From: Alphaproteobacteria bacterium
Lineage (GTDB): Bacteria; Pseudomonadota; Alphaproteobacteria; Caulobacterales; Parvularculaceae
Reading direction: 5' to 3'
Assembly: GCA_016125455.1 (NCBI GenBank)
Contig: WGLS01000004.1
Location: 310,001 to 374,000, forward strand
Length of the DNA stretch: 64,000 bases
Within the stretch, counting starts at the first letter, position 1. Each line of letters opens with the position of its first letter. This document shows positions 1,453 through 63,458 of the stretch, piece after piece. The translations under genes and the position numbers were made by a program. The notes under the pieces were generated by a model. That model was not told where the DNA came from, did not search any database, and saw only the letters and a program-made list of their open reading frames with translations.

Positions 1453-3042
1453 ATGACGGATCAATCAACGGACAACGCACCCGGAAAAGTGCCTGATGGC
1501 GAGGCGTCGGCAGCGCATGAGATCGACGTTGCGCGCGCCAGCCTCGATCATGGCCGTTCGAACGCCTCCGGCCACGCGACGGACGCGCCCGAGTCGAATG
1601 ACGATCACGCTGGCGAGATGGCCGACAACGCGCTCATCGAGGCCGATGCCGCGCAAGACGATGGGGACGACGACGGCCGCACCATCGCCGAAGCGTTTCT
1701 CGAGACCACCCAGACGGCCATCGAAGATAGCGACGTCGACGGCCTGAACGAGATTGTCGAGGAACTTCACCCGGCGGATCTTGCGGACCTGATCGGGCAC
1801 CTCGACGAAGAGGAACGCGCCGCTTTCATGGGCCTTCTTGGCGGTCGCCTGCCGTCCGAGGTGCTGCCCGAGCTCGATGCGTCACTCACCGAGGAAGTCG
1901 TTTCGGCGATGACGCCGGCGGCGGTCGCCGAAGCGGTTGTCGAGCTGGATACTGATGACGCGGCGTTCATCCTTGAGGAGCTCGACGAGGCGAAGCGGGC
2001 GGAGATTCTTGCGGAAGTTCCGATCGCCAGCCGGATCGCCCTGCATCAGGCGTTCGACTACGAAGAAGAATCCGCCGGCCGGATCATGCAGCGTGAGGTC
2101 TTCGCGGCGCCAGGCTACTGGACTGTCGGCCAGATCATCGACCGCATGCGCGGCTCATCTGATCTGCCGGACGTCTTCTACGAAGTGTTCGTCATTGATC
2201 CCGGCTTTCGCCCGGTCGGCGCCGTGCCCTTGTCGACGCTGCTGAAGACCCCGCGCGACGTCACGATCGACGAGATTATGGACGAGGACATTCGGTCCGT
2301 CCCGGTCGATATGGACCAGGAGGAAGTCGGCTATCTGTTCGAGCGCTACAACCTGATTTCAACGCCCGTTGTCGATGGCGGCGGCCGCCTTGTCGGCATG
2401 ATCACTGTCGATGACGTGGTCGAGATCGTGCAGGAGGAGACGGGCGAGGACATGCTGGCGCTCGCTGGCGTCGAAGCCGATTCGGGTCTGTCGGATTCGG
2501 TCGGCGAAACCGTCCGCTCACGGTTTTCCTGGCTTGCGGTAAATCTCGGTACGGCGATCCTTGCGTCATTCGTGATTTCGCTTTTTGACGCTGCGATCGC
2601 GAAGGTCGTGGCTCTCGCGGTGTTGATGCCGATTGTGGCTTCGATGGGCGGGAATGCCGGTACGCAAACCCTTACCGTGGCGGTCCGCGCTCTCGCCACG
2701 CGTTCCCTGACGCCGTCGAATGCGGCGCGCATCGTTTGGCGGGAAGCTCAGGTCGGCTTTCTGAACGGCGCGATGTTTGCCGTCATCATGGGCGGCCTCG
2801 CCGGCGCCTGGTACGCTGCGACGAGCGGCGATACGGCCGGGGCTGCACGGCTTGGCGTCGTGGTCGGCGCCGCCATGGTGATTAATCTGCTAGCCGCCGG
2901 CCTTGCCGGGATCCTGGTGCCCATCGCGTTGCAGCGAGCGGGGCAGGACCCGGCGGTATCCTCGGCCGTCTTTGTCACGACCGTCACCGATATCGTTGGA
3001 TTCGCCGTTTTCCTTGGACTTGCCGCCGCGGTTCTGATGTAG
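1453..3042 (+). CDS. mgtE: Magnesium transporter MgtE
   Basis: MgtE is a homodimeric inner-membrane Mg2+ channel gated by its own cytoplasmic Mg2+-sensing domains. Domains in order: an acidic, low-complexity N-terminal extension of about 70 residues, the MgtE_N superhelical domain, a CBS pair, and a C-terminal five-helix membrane domain that contains the pore signature MGGNAGTQTL. The ATG at 1453 is preferred over a GTG 15 bases upstream, because AAGAGGG at 1441-1447 provides a ribosome-binding site 5 bases away. The protein is then 529 residues; the family is usually about 450, and the excess is the acidic extension. The leader carries a promoter and hairpins, so control at RNA level is possible. 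Confidence 0.95.
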   Translation: MTDQSTDNAPGKVPDGEASAAHEIDVARASLDHGRSNASGHATDAPESNDDHAGEMADNALIEADAAQDDGDDDGRTIAEAFLETTQTAIEDSDVDGLNEIVEELHPADLADLIGHLDEEERAAFMGLLGGRLPSEVLPELDASLTEEVVSAMTPAAVAEAVVELDTDDAAFILEELDEAKRAEILAEVPIASRIALHQAFDYEEESAGRIMQREVFAAPGYWTVGQIIDRMRGSSDLPDVFYEVFVIDPGFRPVGAVPLSTLLKTPRDVTIDEIMDEDIRSVPVDMDQEEVGYLFERYNLISTPVVDGGGRLVGMITVDDVVEIVQEETGEDMLALAGVEADSGLSDSVGETVRSRFSWLAVNLGTAILASFVISLFDAAIAKVVALAVLMPIVASMGGNAGTQTLTVAVRALATRSLTPSNAARIVWREAQVGFLNGAMFAVIMGGLAGAWYAATSGDTAGAARLGVVVGAAMVINLLAAGLAGILVPIALQRAGQDPAVSSAVFVTTVTDIVGFAVFLGLAAAVLM

Positions 3043-3127
3043 GGCCGCGCGCGGGTCCATGCGCAGGGTTGTCCTGAAAACCGCCCCCACGGACGTTGTC
3101 CATGAGGGAGGCTGGATTAGCGTTTCG

Positions 3128-3463
3128 TCATGCGCTTCGGCGCGCCCGCCGCTGTCGCGCGTCGCCTGCAAACGCGGCCCACAGGCCGAGTCCGCCCAAA
3201 GCGAAGATCAGTAGCCAGAGGACATCCGGTTCAGCCAGATCGACCGGCGGTTCTTCTTCGTCGCACTCTTCGTCCGTTTCCGGATCGCAAGGCGGCGGCA
3301 TGACGATGGGCGGCGGCGGCGGGTTCGGAATGATCGGGACGCCAATGCCCGGCGGACCGATAATCGGACTTGCAGGTGGAAAAATCGGCACGCCAGTCAG
3401 CACGACAGGTTCGCTGATTGGCGGGACTGAGGCGATGCCAGCCGGCTCCGGAGCCCGCCACAC
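3128..3463 (-). CDS. Putative proline-rich protein with C-terminal membrane anchor (uncertain)
   Basis: This 111-codon frame starts with GTG. It encodes a Pro/Ile/Gly-rich stretch, a very acidic patch (DPETDEECDEEE), then an EPD motif, one hydrophobic helix (VLWLLIFALGGLGLWAAFAG) and an Arg-rich tail. The order Glu-Pro, helix, Arg cluster resembles PEP-CTERM-type sorting tails. No signal peptide is encoded after the GTG and no upstream in-frame start exists before a stop at 3545-3547. Either the start is unusual, or the gene is a decayed or frameshifted form joined to the signal-bearing frame at 3520-3750. The opposite strand is also open here, so coding status is moderate at best. Function unknown. 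Confidence 0.4.
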   Translation of the reverse strand: MWRAPEPAGIASVPPISEPVVLTGVPIFPPASPIIGPPGIGVPIIPNPPPPPIVMPPPCDPETDEECDEEEPPVDLAEPDVLWLLIFALGGLGLWAAFAGDARQRRARRSA

Positions 3464-3519
3464 TCCCCGCGGCGCCGCCGGACTATAGCCAGCGAGGCGA
3501 AGGGGAACGGGGCGGGATC

Positions 3520-3750
3520 CTAGAAAGGGGCGGCAGCCTGCCTTTCATTCGCCTCATCGCCGCAGCACCCGCAATTCACGACGATGTCATTGCGGATATC
3601 GCCCACGGCGCGCGCATACCATTCGGCGAACTCGCGATCGGATGACTGGGCCTGACCGCGGCTTGCGCCGCCGGTCCAGATGATCGCAAGCGCGATAATC
3701 ACGGCCGCTGCAACGTTCGCCATTCCGTTCCCAAACATAGGGTTCCCCAA
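3520..3750 (-). CDS. Small secreted or membrane protein, unknown function
   Basis: A 76-residue frame, or 67 if the internal ATG at 3723 is used; that ATG has GGGAACGG just upstream. From that Met the protein has a hydrophobic segment (NVAAAVIIALAIIWTGG) with an AQA-like cleavage site, then a charged, mixed-composition domain (SSDREFAEWYARAVGDI) and a Cys motif CGCC near the C-terminus. The composition is credible for a short exported polypeptide and unlike the shadow frames nearby. I recognise no family. It lies directly upstream of the proline-rich frame in another phase, and the two could be remnants of one gene. Confidence 0.4.
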   Translation of the reverse strand: MGNPMFGNGMANVAAAVIIALAIIWTGGASRGQAQSSDREFAEWYARAVGDIRNDIVVNCGCCGDEANERQAAAPF

Positions 3751-4235
3751 GTTTCGCCCGGCTGGTGGGTCGTTGCCGGACGGCAGGGCCGTTCGGTAGC
3801 GCGGCGGTCCGGGCGGCCGCCACGTCGACGGAGACTCAATTCCCGTGCCAGATGCGATGCCCGCGCCGTTCGCCCCATAAGATAATGATGGCCTTGGCGG
3901 CAGCGATGCGCTCGCCCTCGACGAGGCGAGGCGACGATGGCAGTCGGCTTAGTGTTTGAAAACCTAGCGTAAATTGCATTTCGATCGGCCGGACGTAGCA
4001 GCGCTCGGGCGGTCCTGTTGGCGTCACGCCGCCGGGTCGGACCCACGCGCGCGCCCGCCTCGGAAGCTGCGACGCCTGCGCCACAGGGGCCGCGCCAACT
4101 TTCCAGGCAATCCTAACGCGTCTATCAACGGGACGGGGAGCATGATAACCCTAATGATTGGAAAGATTGCGGCCGGGCGCGATCCAGTGGGTCCGTTCCC
4201 GCCGTGGGGAAGGGTCCGAGTACGAAAGCGGGGTC
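3751..4235. other. Intergenic region with no supported gene
   Basis: About 485 bases lie between the small minus-strand frame and the lysozyme-domain gene. Several overlapping frames are open, but all are Arg/Pro-rich shadows without domain character. No tRNA, terminator or clear promoter was recognised. It should contain the divergent promoters for both flanking genes. Confidence 0.4.
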
Positions 4236-5207
4236 ATGATGCGGACGGGCGAAACCGGTCTCAATCTGATCAAGGGGTATGAAGGTCTTCGCATGTCGGC
4301 GTATTACACGCCGGCTGAGGAATGGACGGTTGGCTATGGCCACACGTCGACCGCCCGGCACGGGATGAGCGTCTCTGAGTCCGACGCCGACCGGCTGTTG
4401 CGCGAGGACGTGACGCCGATCGAGCAGGTGATCGCCGAAACCGTGCGCGCGCCTCTCAACCAGAACGAGCACGATGCGCTCGTCTCCCTGATTTTCAACA
4501 TCGGGTCCGAGAACTGGAAGCGGTCGACTGCGCTGCGAAAACTTAACGAAGGCGACAAACTTTCGGCGGCCAGCGCGTTCGAAATGTGGAACAAGGCCCG
4601 CGTCAATGGCGAGCTTGTCACCCTCGACGGACTTATCCGTCGGCGCGCCGCTGAGAAATCTTTGTTCCTGATGCCGACCGACGCGTCGCTTGTGGTTCCG
4701 TCCGCCGACGTGACGCCTTCGCCGGAATGCGAACTGGGTTTCGTCAGCGACCGCGAGCTGAAGGCGAGCCCGGTCGTCGAGTTCAACCCGAGGGAACATA
4801 CAGGGCTAATTCCCCTGTCAAATGAGGAACGCGCCTCACGGGCGCGTGCGCTTTTCGCCGCGACCCAGGCGATCGGCGGCGACCCGACGAAAATGATCAT
4901 TTCCAAGGCCGAGGAACATGCAGATATCGGCGTGACGGTGGGTGCGGCATTTGCGGGTCTGCTGGCGCTTGGCCTTACTGGCCTTGGAGGCGCCTTGTTC
5001 ATCGGGCAGCAGTTCCCTGGCGTTGTTGCCGCCCTGAACCTCAACCAGCAATACTACACGGCGTTCGAAAACGCGCCTATCTGGCTGGCGGCGTTCGGCG
5101 CGGCGATCAGCTATTTCCTGCTTTATGTCCTTGCGAAGCGCGCCGCCCGGCACGAGTTGAAACGCCAGCGAGTCCGCGAAATCGCCCGGTTGAAGGCAGC
5201 CGAATAG
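4236..5207 (+). CDS. GH24 lysozyme-domain protein with C-terminal two-helix membrane hairpin
   Basis: This 323-residue protein has an N-terminal phage-type lysozyme (glycoside hydrolase 24) domain, about residues 5-150. It shows the hallmarks GYEGLR, WTVGYGHT and LVSLIFNIGS. A linker follows, then two hydrophobic segments (about 231-257 and 281-300) and a basic tail. The catalytic pattern of the family is Glu, 8 residues, Asp or Cys, 5 residues, Thr. Here it reads Glu16, 8 residues, Thr25, 5 residues, Thr31, so the acidic position is Thr. There is no signal peptide, and the positive-inside rule places both ends in the cytoplasm. The start at 4236 (MMRTGE) is preferred to one 78 bases upstream because the domain begins right after it. 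No phage genes surround it. Confidence 0.8.
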   Translation: MMRTGETGLNLIKGYEGLRMSAYYTPAEEWTVGYGHTSTARHGMSVSESDADRLLREDVTPIEQVIAETVRAPLNQNEHDALVSLIFNIGSENWKRSTALRKLNEGDKLSAASAFEMWNKARVNGELVTLDGLIRRRAAEKSLFLMPTDASLVVPSADVTPSPECELGFVSDRELKASPVVEFNPREHTGLIPLSNEERASRARALFAATQAIGGDPTKMIISKAEEHADIGVTVGAAFAGLLALGLTGLGGALFIGQQFPGVVAALNLNQQYYTAFENAPIWLAAFGAAISYFLLYVLAKRAARHELKRQRVREIARLKAAE

Positions 5208-58557: not shown

Positions 58558-58986
58558 TTAGTTCAGGCCAACCTTGCGGGCCTGGAGCATCAGGGCGTCG
58601 ATCGACGAAAAGCGCGCGCCAAGATCCTCGGTGTCGGTCGCCGACAGGTTGGCATCCTGCGCCGCAACCGCCAGCGTGCCGAGCGTGGCGCGAATGCGAT
58701 TGATTTCCTGTTTGAGGCCGACCGCGCGACCAAGCAGGAAGCCGTAATACACGAGGCACAACGGGGTCACGAACAAGGCGACGTAAATCAGCGGCCGCGC
58801 GGCCGCGTGACCGCCGATCATGGCGCCAAGCCCGCCCGAGCCTGCAAGCACAAGCAGCGCGCCGGCGATCAGCAGGCGCAGATGCTGGCGACGGCGGAGC
58901 GTTATCGCGGCTTCCACCGCACGTTCCTGGGCGAATAGAATCTCCTTCAGCGCGCCTGCAATGCGCGACGCCTTGGGTTCCGTCAT
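58558..58986 (-). CDS. Two-helix membrane protein paired with a GTPase
   Basis: A 142-residue protein. A basic, amphipathic N-terminal region (KEILFAQERAVEAAITLRRR) is followed by two membrane helices (about residues 38-60 and 64-86) and a cytoplasmic C-terminal helical stretch (VGLKQEINRIRATLGTLAV). I recognise no family. Its ATG at 58986 overlaps the stop of the GTPase gene (ATGA), so the two are translationally coupled and probably form a complex in the membrane. The longer frame upstream to 59355 overlaps the GTPase gene and is not credible. Confidence 0.7.
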   Translation of the reverse strand: MTEPKASRIAGALKEILFAQERAVEAAITLRRRQHLRLLIAGALLVLAGSGGLGAMIGGHAAARPLIYVALFVTPLCLVYYGFLLGRAVGLKQEINRIRATLGTLAVAAQDANLSATDTEDLGARFSSIDALMLQARKVGLN

Positions 58987-60284
58987 GACCGACCTCCCTC
59001 GCGCGGCCAGTTCAACCGGAACAGGTCCGCGCGCATATCCATGATAGCCTTTTGCGTCGCCGCTTTCAGCGCGTCGCGCGCCTCGTTCTGCACCTTGTAG
59101 ACAAGCACCCGCGCGCCGTCGCCTTCGCGGCCCGTCTTCGCGGACATATCGTCGAACAGGAAACTGACCGGAATGTAGGGTTCGAAAATCACCCGGCCGC
59201 CGCGACTTTCGACGATGTATCGCAGTGCTTCTTCGAAATCGCGAAAAGGCTGGCTGCGGTAGTAGGCCTCGACGTCCTTGCGCCGATCCCACCAGAAGCC
59301 CGCCATGTTGATCATGTTCTTGAATGCCAGCCGCCCCCGATAGCCTTGCGGCCATGCATCGTCGACCGCGGCGATGATGTCATGCAGGCCTGCAATTTCT
59401 TCCTGGCGCTTTTCCTCCTGGAACGCGGCGAGCGTGCGCCCGGCGTCGCCCTTGATCAGTTCAGCGATGATATCAGACCGCTTCATGACTGACGCGCTGT
59501 AGCCGTAGGTCATGACGTTGACGATCATGGAGCGCTGATGGGACGGCCAGACCTCGCCAAGCGCCTGGGCCCAATGGGCGCTGCGTCCGACCTCCTGGCC
59601 GCGCACGTCGAACATATAGCGCCGATGCGCGATCTTTATCTGCTCTGCGTCGCCGGTAACGTTATACTCCCGCAACTCGCTGCCGATCTCGAACGCGTCG
59701 TCCGCCCGCCGCTCGGTCGGCTTGCGGTAGGTGCCTTCAAGCATTTCCTCGATATCGAGGTCCTTGAACGTCCGCCTGCCGATTAATGGCGCATTGTGCC
59801 GCGACGAGCGCAGATGGTCGTAGTGGAGATATTGCAGCAGGGTCGTCTTGCCGACGCCGCCAATGCCAAGGCACGCGCCGCCGTAGCGGCCGCCAAGGAT
59901 GCTGTCGAACACGGCCTGCGGATAGGACGGTCGGCCGTCGAGCCGGTCTTTCTGGTACTGCCATAGGCGCGCCGCGAAATAGGCGGCGACGCCAAGAGCG
60001 GCGAACCCGAGTTCGACCGGATTTAAGAGTCGGTCAGAGACAAACGTCTGCATCTCGGCGAGGATCTCGTCCGTAGCCTGCGGCGTTCGCCCCCAGAAGA
60101 ACAGGAACAACGAGGCAAGAAATACGACGACGCCGCTGGCAGCTGTTGCAACATACCGCAGTCGCGGACGCGTCACGATCCGAACGGCGAACTGGAGCAC
60201 CACAAGCAAAAGGGCAATCGCCAGCAACGGCGCGCCGTAAATGACCGCTATCGGGTCAAAATCCCGTTTTTGTCGTGCGGGCAC
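58983..60284 (-). CDS. Membrane-anchored Roc/Arf-like GTPase, unknown function
   Basis: A 433-residue protein with three N-terminal hydrophobic segments (about residues 13-38, 42-65 and 89-107), then a P-loop GTPase domain. G1 is LGIGGVGKTT (139-148) and G3 is FDVRGQEVG, with the DxxGQE of Arf, Rab and Roc proteins. The G4 NKxD is not evident; at the expected place stands NMINMAGFWWDRR (323-335). A long C-terminal region ends in IMDMRADLFRLNW. GTG 60284 is chosen over TTG 60329 because GGGGGAA lies 6 bases upstream. The next gene overlaps by 4 bases. I infer a membrane-associated switch; the pathway is unknown. Confidence 0.72.
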   Translation of the reverse strand: MPARQKRDFDPIAVIYGAPLLAIALLLVVLQFAVRIVTRPRLRYVATAASGVVVFLASLFLFFWGRTPQATDEILAEMQTFVSDRLLNPVELGFAALGVAAYFAARLWQYQKDRLDGRPSYPQAVFDSILGGRYGGACLGIGGVGKTTLLQYLHYDHLRSSRHNAPLIGRRTFKDLDIEEMLEGTYRKPTERRADDAFEIGSELREYNVTGDAEQIKIAHRRYMFDVRGQEVGRSAHWAQALGEVWPSHQRSMIVNVMTYGYSASVMKRSDIIAELIKGDAGRTLAAFQEEKRQEEIAGLHDIIAAVDDAWPQGYRGRLAFKNMINMAGFWWDRRKDVEAYYRSQPFRDFEEALRYIVESRGGRVIFEPYIPVSFLFDDMSAKTGREGDGARVLVYKVQNEARDALKAATQKAIMDMRADLFRLNWPREGGRS

Positions 60285-62254: not shown

Positions 62255-62330
62255 CGTCGCCCGCGCTGCATTTGCCTTCGGGGCGAAGCATGAAATGCTC
62301 TTCGCAATGAGCAGGCATTCGTCGGTCGGC

Positions 62331-63458
62331 ATGAAACCAACCTACTATGAATTCTTTGCCGGCGGCGGCATGGCGTCGATCGGCCTCGGCGCGCAGTGGC
62401 GATGTCTGTTGGCGAACGACATCGATCCGGTCAAGGCGGCCGCTTATCGCGACAATCACCCCGGCCATCGCTTTGTCGAGGGCGACATCGCCCAGCTGAC
62501 GGCGGGCGATCTGCCGGGCGTCGCCGACCTTGCCTGGGCGTCGTTTCCCTGTCAGGACCTGTCGCTTGCCGGAAAGGGCGGCGGGTTGTCTGGCGCGCGG
62601 TCCGGGGTCTTCTGGTCCTTTGAACGGCTGATGCGCGGCCTTGTGGAAGATGGCCGCTCGCCGCGGCTGATAGCGATCGAGAATGTCATTGGCCTGATGA
62701 CCTCGAACGGCGGGCGCGATCTTGAAACAGCGGCCGCGGCAGTGGCGGCGCTTGGGTATCGCGTCGCCATGTTCACCCTTGATGCCGCCCATTTCTTGCC
62801 TCAGTCGCGGCCCCGACTGTTCATGATCGGTATGCGAAACGATGTCATGTCCCCAACGATAGCGTCGGACCAGCGCAGCGAACGCGAAGCGCGAGCGGTT
62901 GAACGGCTGATGCGTCGTTTGGGGCCTGCTTTCGTCGACATCCGCCCGCCTGCGCCGCCGCGGCGGAACACTGATCTCGTTGATATCATCGACTGGCGCG
63001 CGCCAACCCACCCGCGAGCGCAAACCGAAACGCTGCTCGGCCTCATGGCGCCATTGCACCGCGCCCGGGTGGAGGAGCGCCGGCTTGCCTGCAAGGGCAG
63101 GGGCGAGCGCGCGGTCGGCGCAGTCTATCGCCGGATGCGGACGAATGTGTCCGGGGGGCGCGTCCAGCGCGCAGAGGTTCGCTTCGACGGCCTCGCCGGC
63201 TGCCTGAGGACGCCCGCCGGCGGATCCAGCCGGCAGACGCTTTTGTTGATTGAGAAGGGCGAGGTTCGCAGTCGCCTCATTACGTCGCGCGAGGCGGCCG
63301 CGCTGATGGGCCTGCCCGACGGCTACTTGCTGCCAGACAGATATAATGACGCCTACAAACTATGCGGCGACGGGGTCGCGGCCCCTGTCGTGAGATGGAT
63401 TGCCGCGACATTCATTGAGCCAATCCTCGCCCATGGCCGCGGTCGCGTAGCCGCATGA
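62331..63458 (+). CDS. DNA (cytosine-5-)-methyltransferase
   Basis: A 375-residue C5-cytosine methylase. Motif I FAGGGMASIGLG binds SAM; motif IV FPCQDLSLAGKGGG holds the catalytic Cys; ENVIG (motif VI), QSRPRLFMIG (motif VIII) and KLCGDGVAAPVV (motif X) are also visible. The target-recognition domain lies between motifs VIII and IX. No restriction endonuclease gene adjoins, so it is probably a solitary (orphan) methylase or a phase of an eroded system. ATG 62331 (MKPTYYEFF) fits relatives; starts at 62295 or 62307 are possible. Confidence 0.92.
   Translation: MKPTYYEFFAGGGMASIGLGAQWRCLLANDIDPVKAAAYRDNHPGHRFVEGDIAQLTAGDLPGVADLAWASFPCQDLSLAGKGGGLSGARSGVFWSFERLMRGLVEDGRSPRLIAIENVIGLMTSNGGRDLETAAAAVAALGYRVAMFTLDAAHFLPQSRPRLFMIGMRNDVMSPTIASDQRSEREARAVERLMRRLGPAFVDIRPPAPPRRNTDLVDIIDWRAPTHPRAQTETLLGLMAPLHRARVEERRLACKGRGERAVGAVYRRMRTNVSGGRVQRAEVRFDGLAGCLRTPAGGSSRQTLLLIEKGEVRSRLITSREAAALMGLPDGYLLPDRYNDAYKLCGDGVAAPVVRWIAATFIEPILAHGRGRVAA

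Follow-up and report, generated by a model that had tools for sequence, protein, structure and literature searches.

A two-gene unit on the minus strand of the window, the whole 64,000-nucleotide stretch of Parvularculaceae DNA analyzed here, is a real and hitherto unclassified entity: the membrane-anchored, G4-degenerate branch of a module that couples a GTPase to a small membrane protein. The best explanation overall, to which we give a probability of roughly 0.55, is an accessory NTP switch at the membrane in which gene 1 works through gene 2. The unit occupies positions 58558–60284, and both reading frames were verified together with their coordinates. Gene 1 (58983..60284, minus strand), with GGGGGAAA upstream of its GTG start and a TGA stop, encodes a membrane-anchored GTPase-fold NTPase of 433 aa. 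Gene 2 (58558..58986, minus strand) encodes a small membrane protein of 142 aa, and its ATG overlaps the gene 1 stop as ATGA. The two-gene layout, the overlap, and the motifs GIGGVGKTT and DVRGQE are thereby confirmed as the initial annotation had described them. Three N-terminal hydrophobic segments had also been proposed for gene 1. By hydropathy, two are clear, at residues 12–30 (60195..60251, minus strand) and 45–63 (60096..60152, minus strand), while the weaker third at residues ~89–107 (59964..60020, minus strand; model helix 89–116), just N-terminal to the P-loop domain, falls below threshold in the window copy; the corresponding segment lies above threshold in all three full-length relatives (L002, L003, and L009). 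The two helices attributed to the partner are borne out as hydrophobic segments, again by hydropathy, at residues 39–57 (58816..58872, minus strand) and 67–85 (58732..58788, minus strand).

The pairing of these two genes is conserved well beyond the window. The full-length relatives of gene 1 share 22–31% identity with the window protein, yet a small membrane protein overlaps the end of gene 1 in all four members, which come from three genera, by 4, 8, 28, or 40 nt; these downstream partners are membrane proteins of 142–252 aa. The idea of a fixed pair therefore holds, and among the members found the two genes are not separable. The arrangement exceeds chance. The background consisted of 99 genes coding for 200 aa or more, taken from nine chosen stretches (the window, the loci of the members and of a canonical relative, L005, and the loci of four relatives). 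Five have a comparable downstream frame, defined, with limits chosen after the members were known, as a same-strand ORF of 100–260 aa with at least two hydrophobic segments and a possible start no more than 45 nt before the stop; they are exactly the five GTPase-like genes, namely the four members and L005. The small proteins themselves align at 27% identity between the window and L009 (E 1e-6) and 28% between L003 and L009 (E 5e-8). In hydropathy-keeping shuffles, with residues permuted within blocks of ten, the observed score was reached in 5 of 1000 cases for window–L009, 1 of 1000 for L003–L009, and 482 of 1000 for window–L003, a comparison that is not significant alone. Sequence similarity suggests that the partners of the window, L003, and L009 are probably one family; membership of the L002 partner, which has four segments and no similarity to the partners of the other members, is unproven.

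The kinship of gene 1 to canonical GTPases emerges from two soluble proteins. The first, L005, belongs to another family of the same class and was initially met as a weak match; two small membrane proteins follow it, and it carries GNTGTGKT, DTPGNE, NVVSYGY, and VVNKYDLW. The second, found through a plasmid search with L005, is a "GTPase domain-containing protein" of the Rhodococcus plasmid pDK4, with GSTGVGKT, DTPGQ, NLTCWGY, and VVSKADLWW. Like the gene 1 family, both proteins have a P-loop, an N[VL]xx[YW]GY signature, and a Trp after the G4 box; their G3 reads DTPG[QN], and a small membrane protein lies directly downstream, as in the window pair. Unlike gene 1, they have no membrane anchor and retain an intact NKxD or SKxD. 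The Rhodococcus partner is a 182-aa ORF that starts 4 nt after the GTPase stop and has three hydrophobic segments, against two in the window partner. No homology was detectable between the window partner and the partners of the canonical relatives, nor among the latter. As side observations, the hypothetical protein annotated on pDK4 (L043:4662-5210) probably starts 54 codons before its annotated start, which adds the first hydrophobic segment, and a G[RT]Y stretch of similar appearance precedes the C-terminal part both in the two small proteins behind L005 (locus L102:3397-5216) and in the partner from Rhodococcus, although these proteins show no significant similarity.

Both distant relatives exceed the curated cut-off of the Pfam family MMR_HSR1 (28.9 and 28.4 vs 21.9), and the window protein has no MMR_HSR1 match at E up to 1. 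A profile built from the four members matches L005 with a probability of 96.3% (E 1.9e-9) and the Rhodococcus GTPase with one of 96.8%; once the P-loops of these targets are masked, the values are 94.0% and 94.7%. Masked decoys scored far lower: at most 1.4% for RadA and two ABC ATPases, at most 1.8% for frames of the 22 loci weakly matched by L005 (L016 and L028 gave no proper frame), and at most 8.0%, the highest decoy value, for five viral GTPases. Without masking, 100 shuffles of L005 reached at most 19.9%, the 22 loci at most 15.0%, and the viral GTPases 19.8%. The masked test matters because the P-loop by itself lifted the two unmasked ABC ATPases to 95.6 and 92.2%. Six of the 22 weak loci were named by Pfam, five as MnmE and one as Der, and such MnmE/Der-type GTPases stayed at or below 15.0% even unmasked. 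As these GTPases score low and ABC ATPases score high by way of the P-loop, the link to GTPases rests on the two relatives. Proteins like L005 are themselves rare. Twenty-three of 289 genomes matched, all of them weakly (22) except L005 itself, and none of 60 relatives of the L005 genome matched L005 at 1e-6. The plasmid search with L005 returned three near-identical Rhodococcus plasmids only, and its phage search was empty; the Rhodococcus GTPase led back to these three plasmids and to no phage, and its partner likewise to the three plasmids.

Set against these canonical sequences, the nucleotide-binding motifs of gene 1 are partly preserved and partly eroded. The P-loop (G1), GIGGVGKTT at residues 140–148 (59841..59867, minus strand), fits the Walker A pattern GxxxxGK[ST], and GxGGxGKTT is common to all four members. 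The G3 box, DVRGQE at residues 226–231 (59592..59609, minus strand), reads DxxGQ in the four; its DVRG (226–229) fits DxxG and comes after a strand at 224–228 of the structural model. The signature NVMTYGY at residues 256–262 (59499..59519, minus strand) has, by alignment, counterparts in NVVSYGY of L005 and, more loosely, NLTCWGY of the Rhodococcus protein. The erosion lies at G4. Here the initial annotation's claim that NKxD had been replaced is upheld: NMINMAGFWW (323–332) is the NKxD-box region, with INMAGFW aligned to VNKYDLW of L005, and NMAG at residues 326–329 (59298..59309, minus strand) takes the place of [NT]KxD. For this reason gene 1 is filed as a GTPase-fold NTPase, not a proven GTPase. 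The NKxD Asp is gone in three of the four members, L002 having NMGG and L009 TMAK, and L003 (AKAD, within VAKADYW) keeps both Lys and Asp. A candidate G2 or switch I residue, Thr210, is Thr, Thr, Thr, and Ser across the four, at a place where model pLDDT is below 50.

What might the loss at G4 mean for nucleotide choice? A precedent is offered by SpoIVA, for which the cited portion of PMC7952092 describes a TRAFAC fold with an altered NKxD that uses ATP, and in which a slight preference for GTP appeared once the Asp was put back and the G5 loop was altered as well. Like gene 1, SpoIVA has a GTPase-derived domain that has lost the Lys and Asp of NKxD; unlike gene 1, it is a cytoskeletal polymer of spore formers, is nearest to Era, and is not described in that portion as membrane-spanning (PMC7952092). 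By analogy, loss of the Asp has probably left base choice in gene 1 relaxed or moved it to ATP. An alternative, which we regard as unlikely yet deserving of consideration, is that gene 1 is still a strict GTP switch, some other residue near the degenerate G4 reading guanine while the motif merely drifted. The Lys and Asp retained by L003 and lost by the others indicate that the lineage tolerates variation at G4, and both distant relatives carry NKxD or SKxD. Against strict GTP dependence, the residue lost in NMAG, NMGG, and TMAK is the very Asp that, according to the portion of PMC7952092 cited, contacts guanine.

It is more doubtful that gene 1 has abandoned nucleotide turnover altogether, as a pseudo-NTPase in which a G-domain fold serves as a membrane scaffold and nucleotide is at most structural. 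In its favor, G4 is lost, and inspection by eye of the gene 1 family alignments revealed no conserved G5 and no clear switch I. However, all four members keep, without exception, the P-loop Lys and Thr and the DxxGQ residues Asp, Gly, and Gln, and these phosphate-site residues count against the idea, since a dead enzyme would not need them.

Structure prediction is consistent with a G domain, on models of low confidence. AlphaFold models built from 4 and 5 sequences reached a mean pLDDT of 54.3 for the full protein and 58.1 for the domain, with pTM of 0.51 and 0.64; within the domain, its later strands and helices score better. Neither model had a Foldseek match that reached E 0.001; the rows listed for the full model were G domains mixed with unrelated proteins, and those for the domain were mostly G domains. 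On the same low-pLDDT models a second structural aligner gave best Z scores of 10.2 (full) and 12.0 (domain), the latter for 9h4q_a, an EGOC chain (165 residues, rmsd 3.2). The 50 matches listed for each model are, as we read them, G-domain proteins or complexes holding one (several titles name the complex, not the chain), including Rag/Gtr, G-alpha, Arf-like, EF-Tu, EHD, and atlastin proteins, as well as LRRK2. Sequence profiles alone do not reveal the G domain: searched against the PDB, those of the gene 1 family found P-loops, Midasin first, whereas a profile made from both canonical relatives placed Der, Toc34, IF2, and Ras near the top, alongside Midasin. Together, the fold matches and the order of the motifs support a Ras-like domain of the TRAFAC class, as far as such models allow. 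The most probable identity of gene 1 is a GTPase-fold NTPase of the TRAFAC class with a degenerated guanine-reading motif, an assignment that draws on the profile match to both canonical relatives and on the likeness of the low-confidence folds to G domains of the Rag/Arf/G-alpha type. The earlier description of gene 1 as Roc/Arf-like survives at the level of fold, with Rag/Gtr, Arf-like, G-alpha, and LRRK2 proteins among the listed matches to weak models. It fails as family membership, because the window protein draws no Roc, COR, Ras, or Arf match from Pfam at E up to 1 and because the nearest sequence relatives found are soluble bacterial GTPases that match MMR_HSR1.

No family in the libraries searched claims either protein, as had been supposed. 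In Pfam, NCBIfam, PADLOC, and PHROGs neither window protein came close to a cut-off; PADLOC matched neither of them even at E up to 1, and the relatives have only weak matches to ATPase models (best 0.00078). Among the papers listed in searches of the open-licence literature, none, judged by title and the start of the abstract, describes the gene 1–gene 2 pair.

The distribution of the unit is narrow. Full-length gene 1 is present in 4 of 62 genomes of the Parvularculaceae, the window genome included. A scan of the order (398 genomes) gave full-length matches in the same four only, and scans of the class (385 genomes) and phylum (388) gave one in the window genome only, at most four candidates per genome being scored in each of these three scans. 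The weak matches in them other than L005 were short and mostly over the P-loop; for example, L004 and L006 are ABC transporter ATPases. Plasmid and phage records held no match to the window protein, plasmid records none to L009, and phage records none to L003. A scan of genome contigs showed one locus among the matches listed, L010, identical in sequence to L003. Viral contigs gave no relative by profile or protein scans among the 600 candidate stretches listed. The anchored variant turned up in a single bacterial family. A DNA pattern for NVxTYGY occurred in 6 contigs, none with the motif in an ORF of at least 80 aa (the frames were 2–25 codons long); the one that reads IVNVLTYGYS, L135, has it opposite a 295-aa ORF, and these were set aside as chance matches. 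A DNA pattern for NKxDLWW occurred in 29 contigs, five of them with virus-type GTPases unlinked to the gene 1 family by profile, and a slightly wider version found nothing in 299 genomes. Separately, we observed that these virus-type GTPases (IMG/VR contigs L048, L051, L052, L053, and L072) are ~240 aa long, carry GPSLAGKT or a similar motif, mostly DIGGQ, and NK[MA]DLWW, and have small membrane proteins before them: 73–78 aa with one hydrophobic segment in four, and also 143–158 aa with two segments in L048, L053, and L072. The layout resembles that of the window pair.

Bacterial G-domain proteins of known role are mostly ribosome or tRNA factors, with a few polarity regulators. A role in membrane trafficking or polarity, as first envisaged for the pair, would make gene 1 a switch of the Arf/MglA kind; Arf-like and Rag proteins do occur among its fold matches. 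We consider it very unlikely, with only 4 of 62 family genomes carrying the unit and with a neighbor that Pfam does not identify as a roadblock protein. The prokaryotic Ras superfamily proteins MglA and Rup share the G-domain fold, but in the cited part of PMC4316618 they are single domains of 160–180 aa, MglA pairing with MglB, whereas gene 1 is a 433-aa anchored protein with N-terminal membrane segments and a two-helix membrane neighbor. The rare and patchy distribution among relatives speaks instead for an accessory gene. Least credible of all is a membrane-anchored targeting receptor resembling the beta subunit of the eukaryotic SRP receptor, a helix-anchored G domain: SR-beta (5ck4) is among the 50 listed domain matches at Z 9.5, but many other G domains score equally (rows within 1 Z being tied), and the distribution is again that of a rare accessory gene.

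Genomic context strengthens the picture of an accessory unit gained whole. In one member genome (G457, locus L101), the pair lies at 2064–4245, alone between convergent genes for an Smr protein and a 625-aa protein. The latter two genes adjoin in all 13 chosen relatives of the genus (one stretch, L114, ends inside Smr), with no match there to either gene of the pair, and the ends of the Smr and 625-aa matches lie 12–115 nt apart in the ten relatives measured. The pair therefore entered this junction as a single unit or, with lower probability, was lost from it many times over. The 625-aa protein itself (L101:4246-6123) has no Pfam match at E 0.001, and a second, partial match to it is L117. 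At the malic-enzyme locus of L100, no other flank gene was matched in 7 relatives. In the window, an M28 peptidase gene lies behind the pair on the same strand and an inorganic pyrophosphatase gene ahead of it on the opposite strand. A genome of the same genus, G002, keeps the gene order pyrophosphatase, FAA-hydrolase, GAF, cytosine methylase, but the 12 kb examined there lacks both the pair and the M28 peptidase, and gene 1 has no match genome-wide.

Base composition adds a further hint, as the GC3 of the GTPase gene lies under that of most neighbors in five of six loci. At L101 it is 0.47 vs 0.61–0.69 (its small gene is at 0.69), at L100 0.74 vs 0.70–0.92, at L010 0.62 vs mostly 0.76–0.80, at L102 0.50 vs 0.56–0.72, and in Rhodococcus 0.56 vs 0.79 and 0.83. 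No such offset marks the window unit, gene 1 and gene 2 having 0.77 and 0.78 and other genes in the second half of the window 0.70–0.82. As to an insertion site, no tRNA was found at the window, L100, L101, or L010 loci, and no flanking repeats in the window; the ORF lists around the pair, read by eye, contained no integrase. Apart from a cytosine-5 DNA methylase (62295–63458), which matches the PADLOC DruM and type II methylase models, no mobile element or defense gene stands beside the window unit, and this methylase, next to which no nuclease gene was noticed, is part of the block kept in G002. A candidate RNA element behind the pair folded no better than shuffles and was rejected, as were candidate promoters and terminators, whose counts were near the shuffle mean.

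Returning to the membrane switch that we favor, genes 1 and 2 would form one accessory unit encoding an inner-membrane complex. Gene 1 would be tethered by its N-terminal helical anchor with the nucleotide domain in the cytoplasm, and gene 2 would be a membrane hairpin with cytoplasmic helical ends that, through coupled translation, is made alongside gene 1 and binds it. Binding and hydrolysis of nucleotide, of altered base choice, would then switch the shape of the cytoplasmic domain of gene 1, and gene 2 may carry that change into or across the membrane. The analysis itself establishes the reading frames, motifs, overlap, kinship to canonical GTPases, conserved pairing, and the clean unit at a site empty in relatives; the complex, its topology, hydrolysis, the altered base choice, and switching we infer.

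Judged by distribution, an accessory conflict (anti-phage) or envelope-stress function would be the likeliest role, though still less probable than not; rarity, patchiness, the GC offset, and the occurrence of a clean pair all recall accessory defense or stress genes, against which must be set the lack of a defense neighbor and of any PADLOC model in support. Pfam contains models for DO-GTPase and GAP1, and neither was among the Pfam matches at E up to 1. The DO-GTPase/GAP1 conflict systems, in the portion of PMC7159879 cited, likewise involve TRAFAC GTPases, ~13% of them with N-terminal membrane segments, and a fixed neighbor gene, but that neighbor is the three-domain GAP1, and here it is a membrane protein of 142–252 aa in all four members. 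A bolder and rather improbable proposal is that the pair belongs to a novel class of mobile two-gene modules, met here in two bacterial phyla. A small membrane protein and an NTPase of the G-protein type would together make up a membrane switch that acts against phages or plasmids by altering the membrane, and in one alphaproteobacterial lineage the NTPase would have become anchored and lost guanine recognition.

With one branch altered in its base-reading motif and soluble sisters that kept theirs, this rare, transferable pair offers a natural series. Such a series is well suited to asking how a GTP switch becomes another kind of NTPase, and what the small membrane partners do. The pair is also a candidate for an unrecognized defense or stress module.
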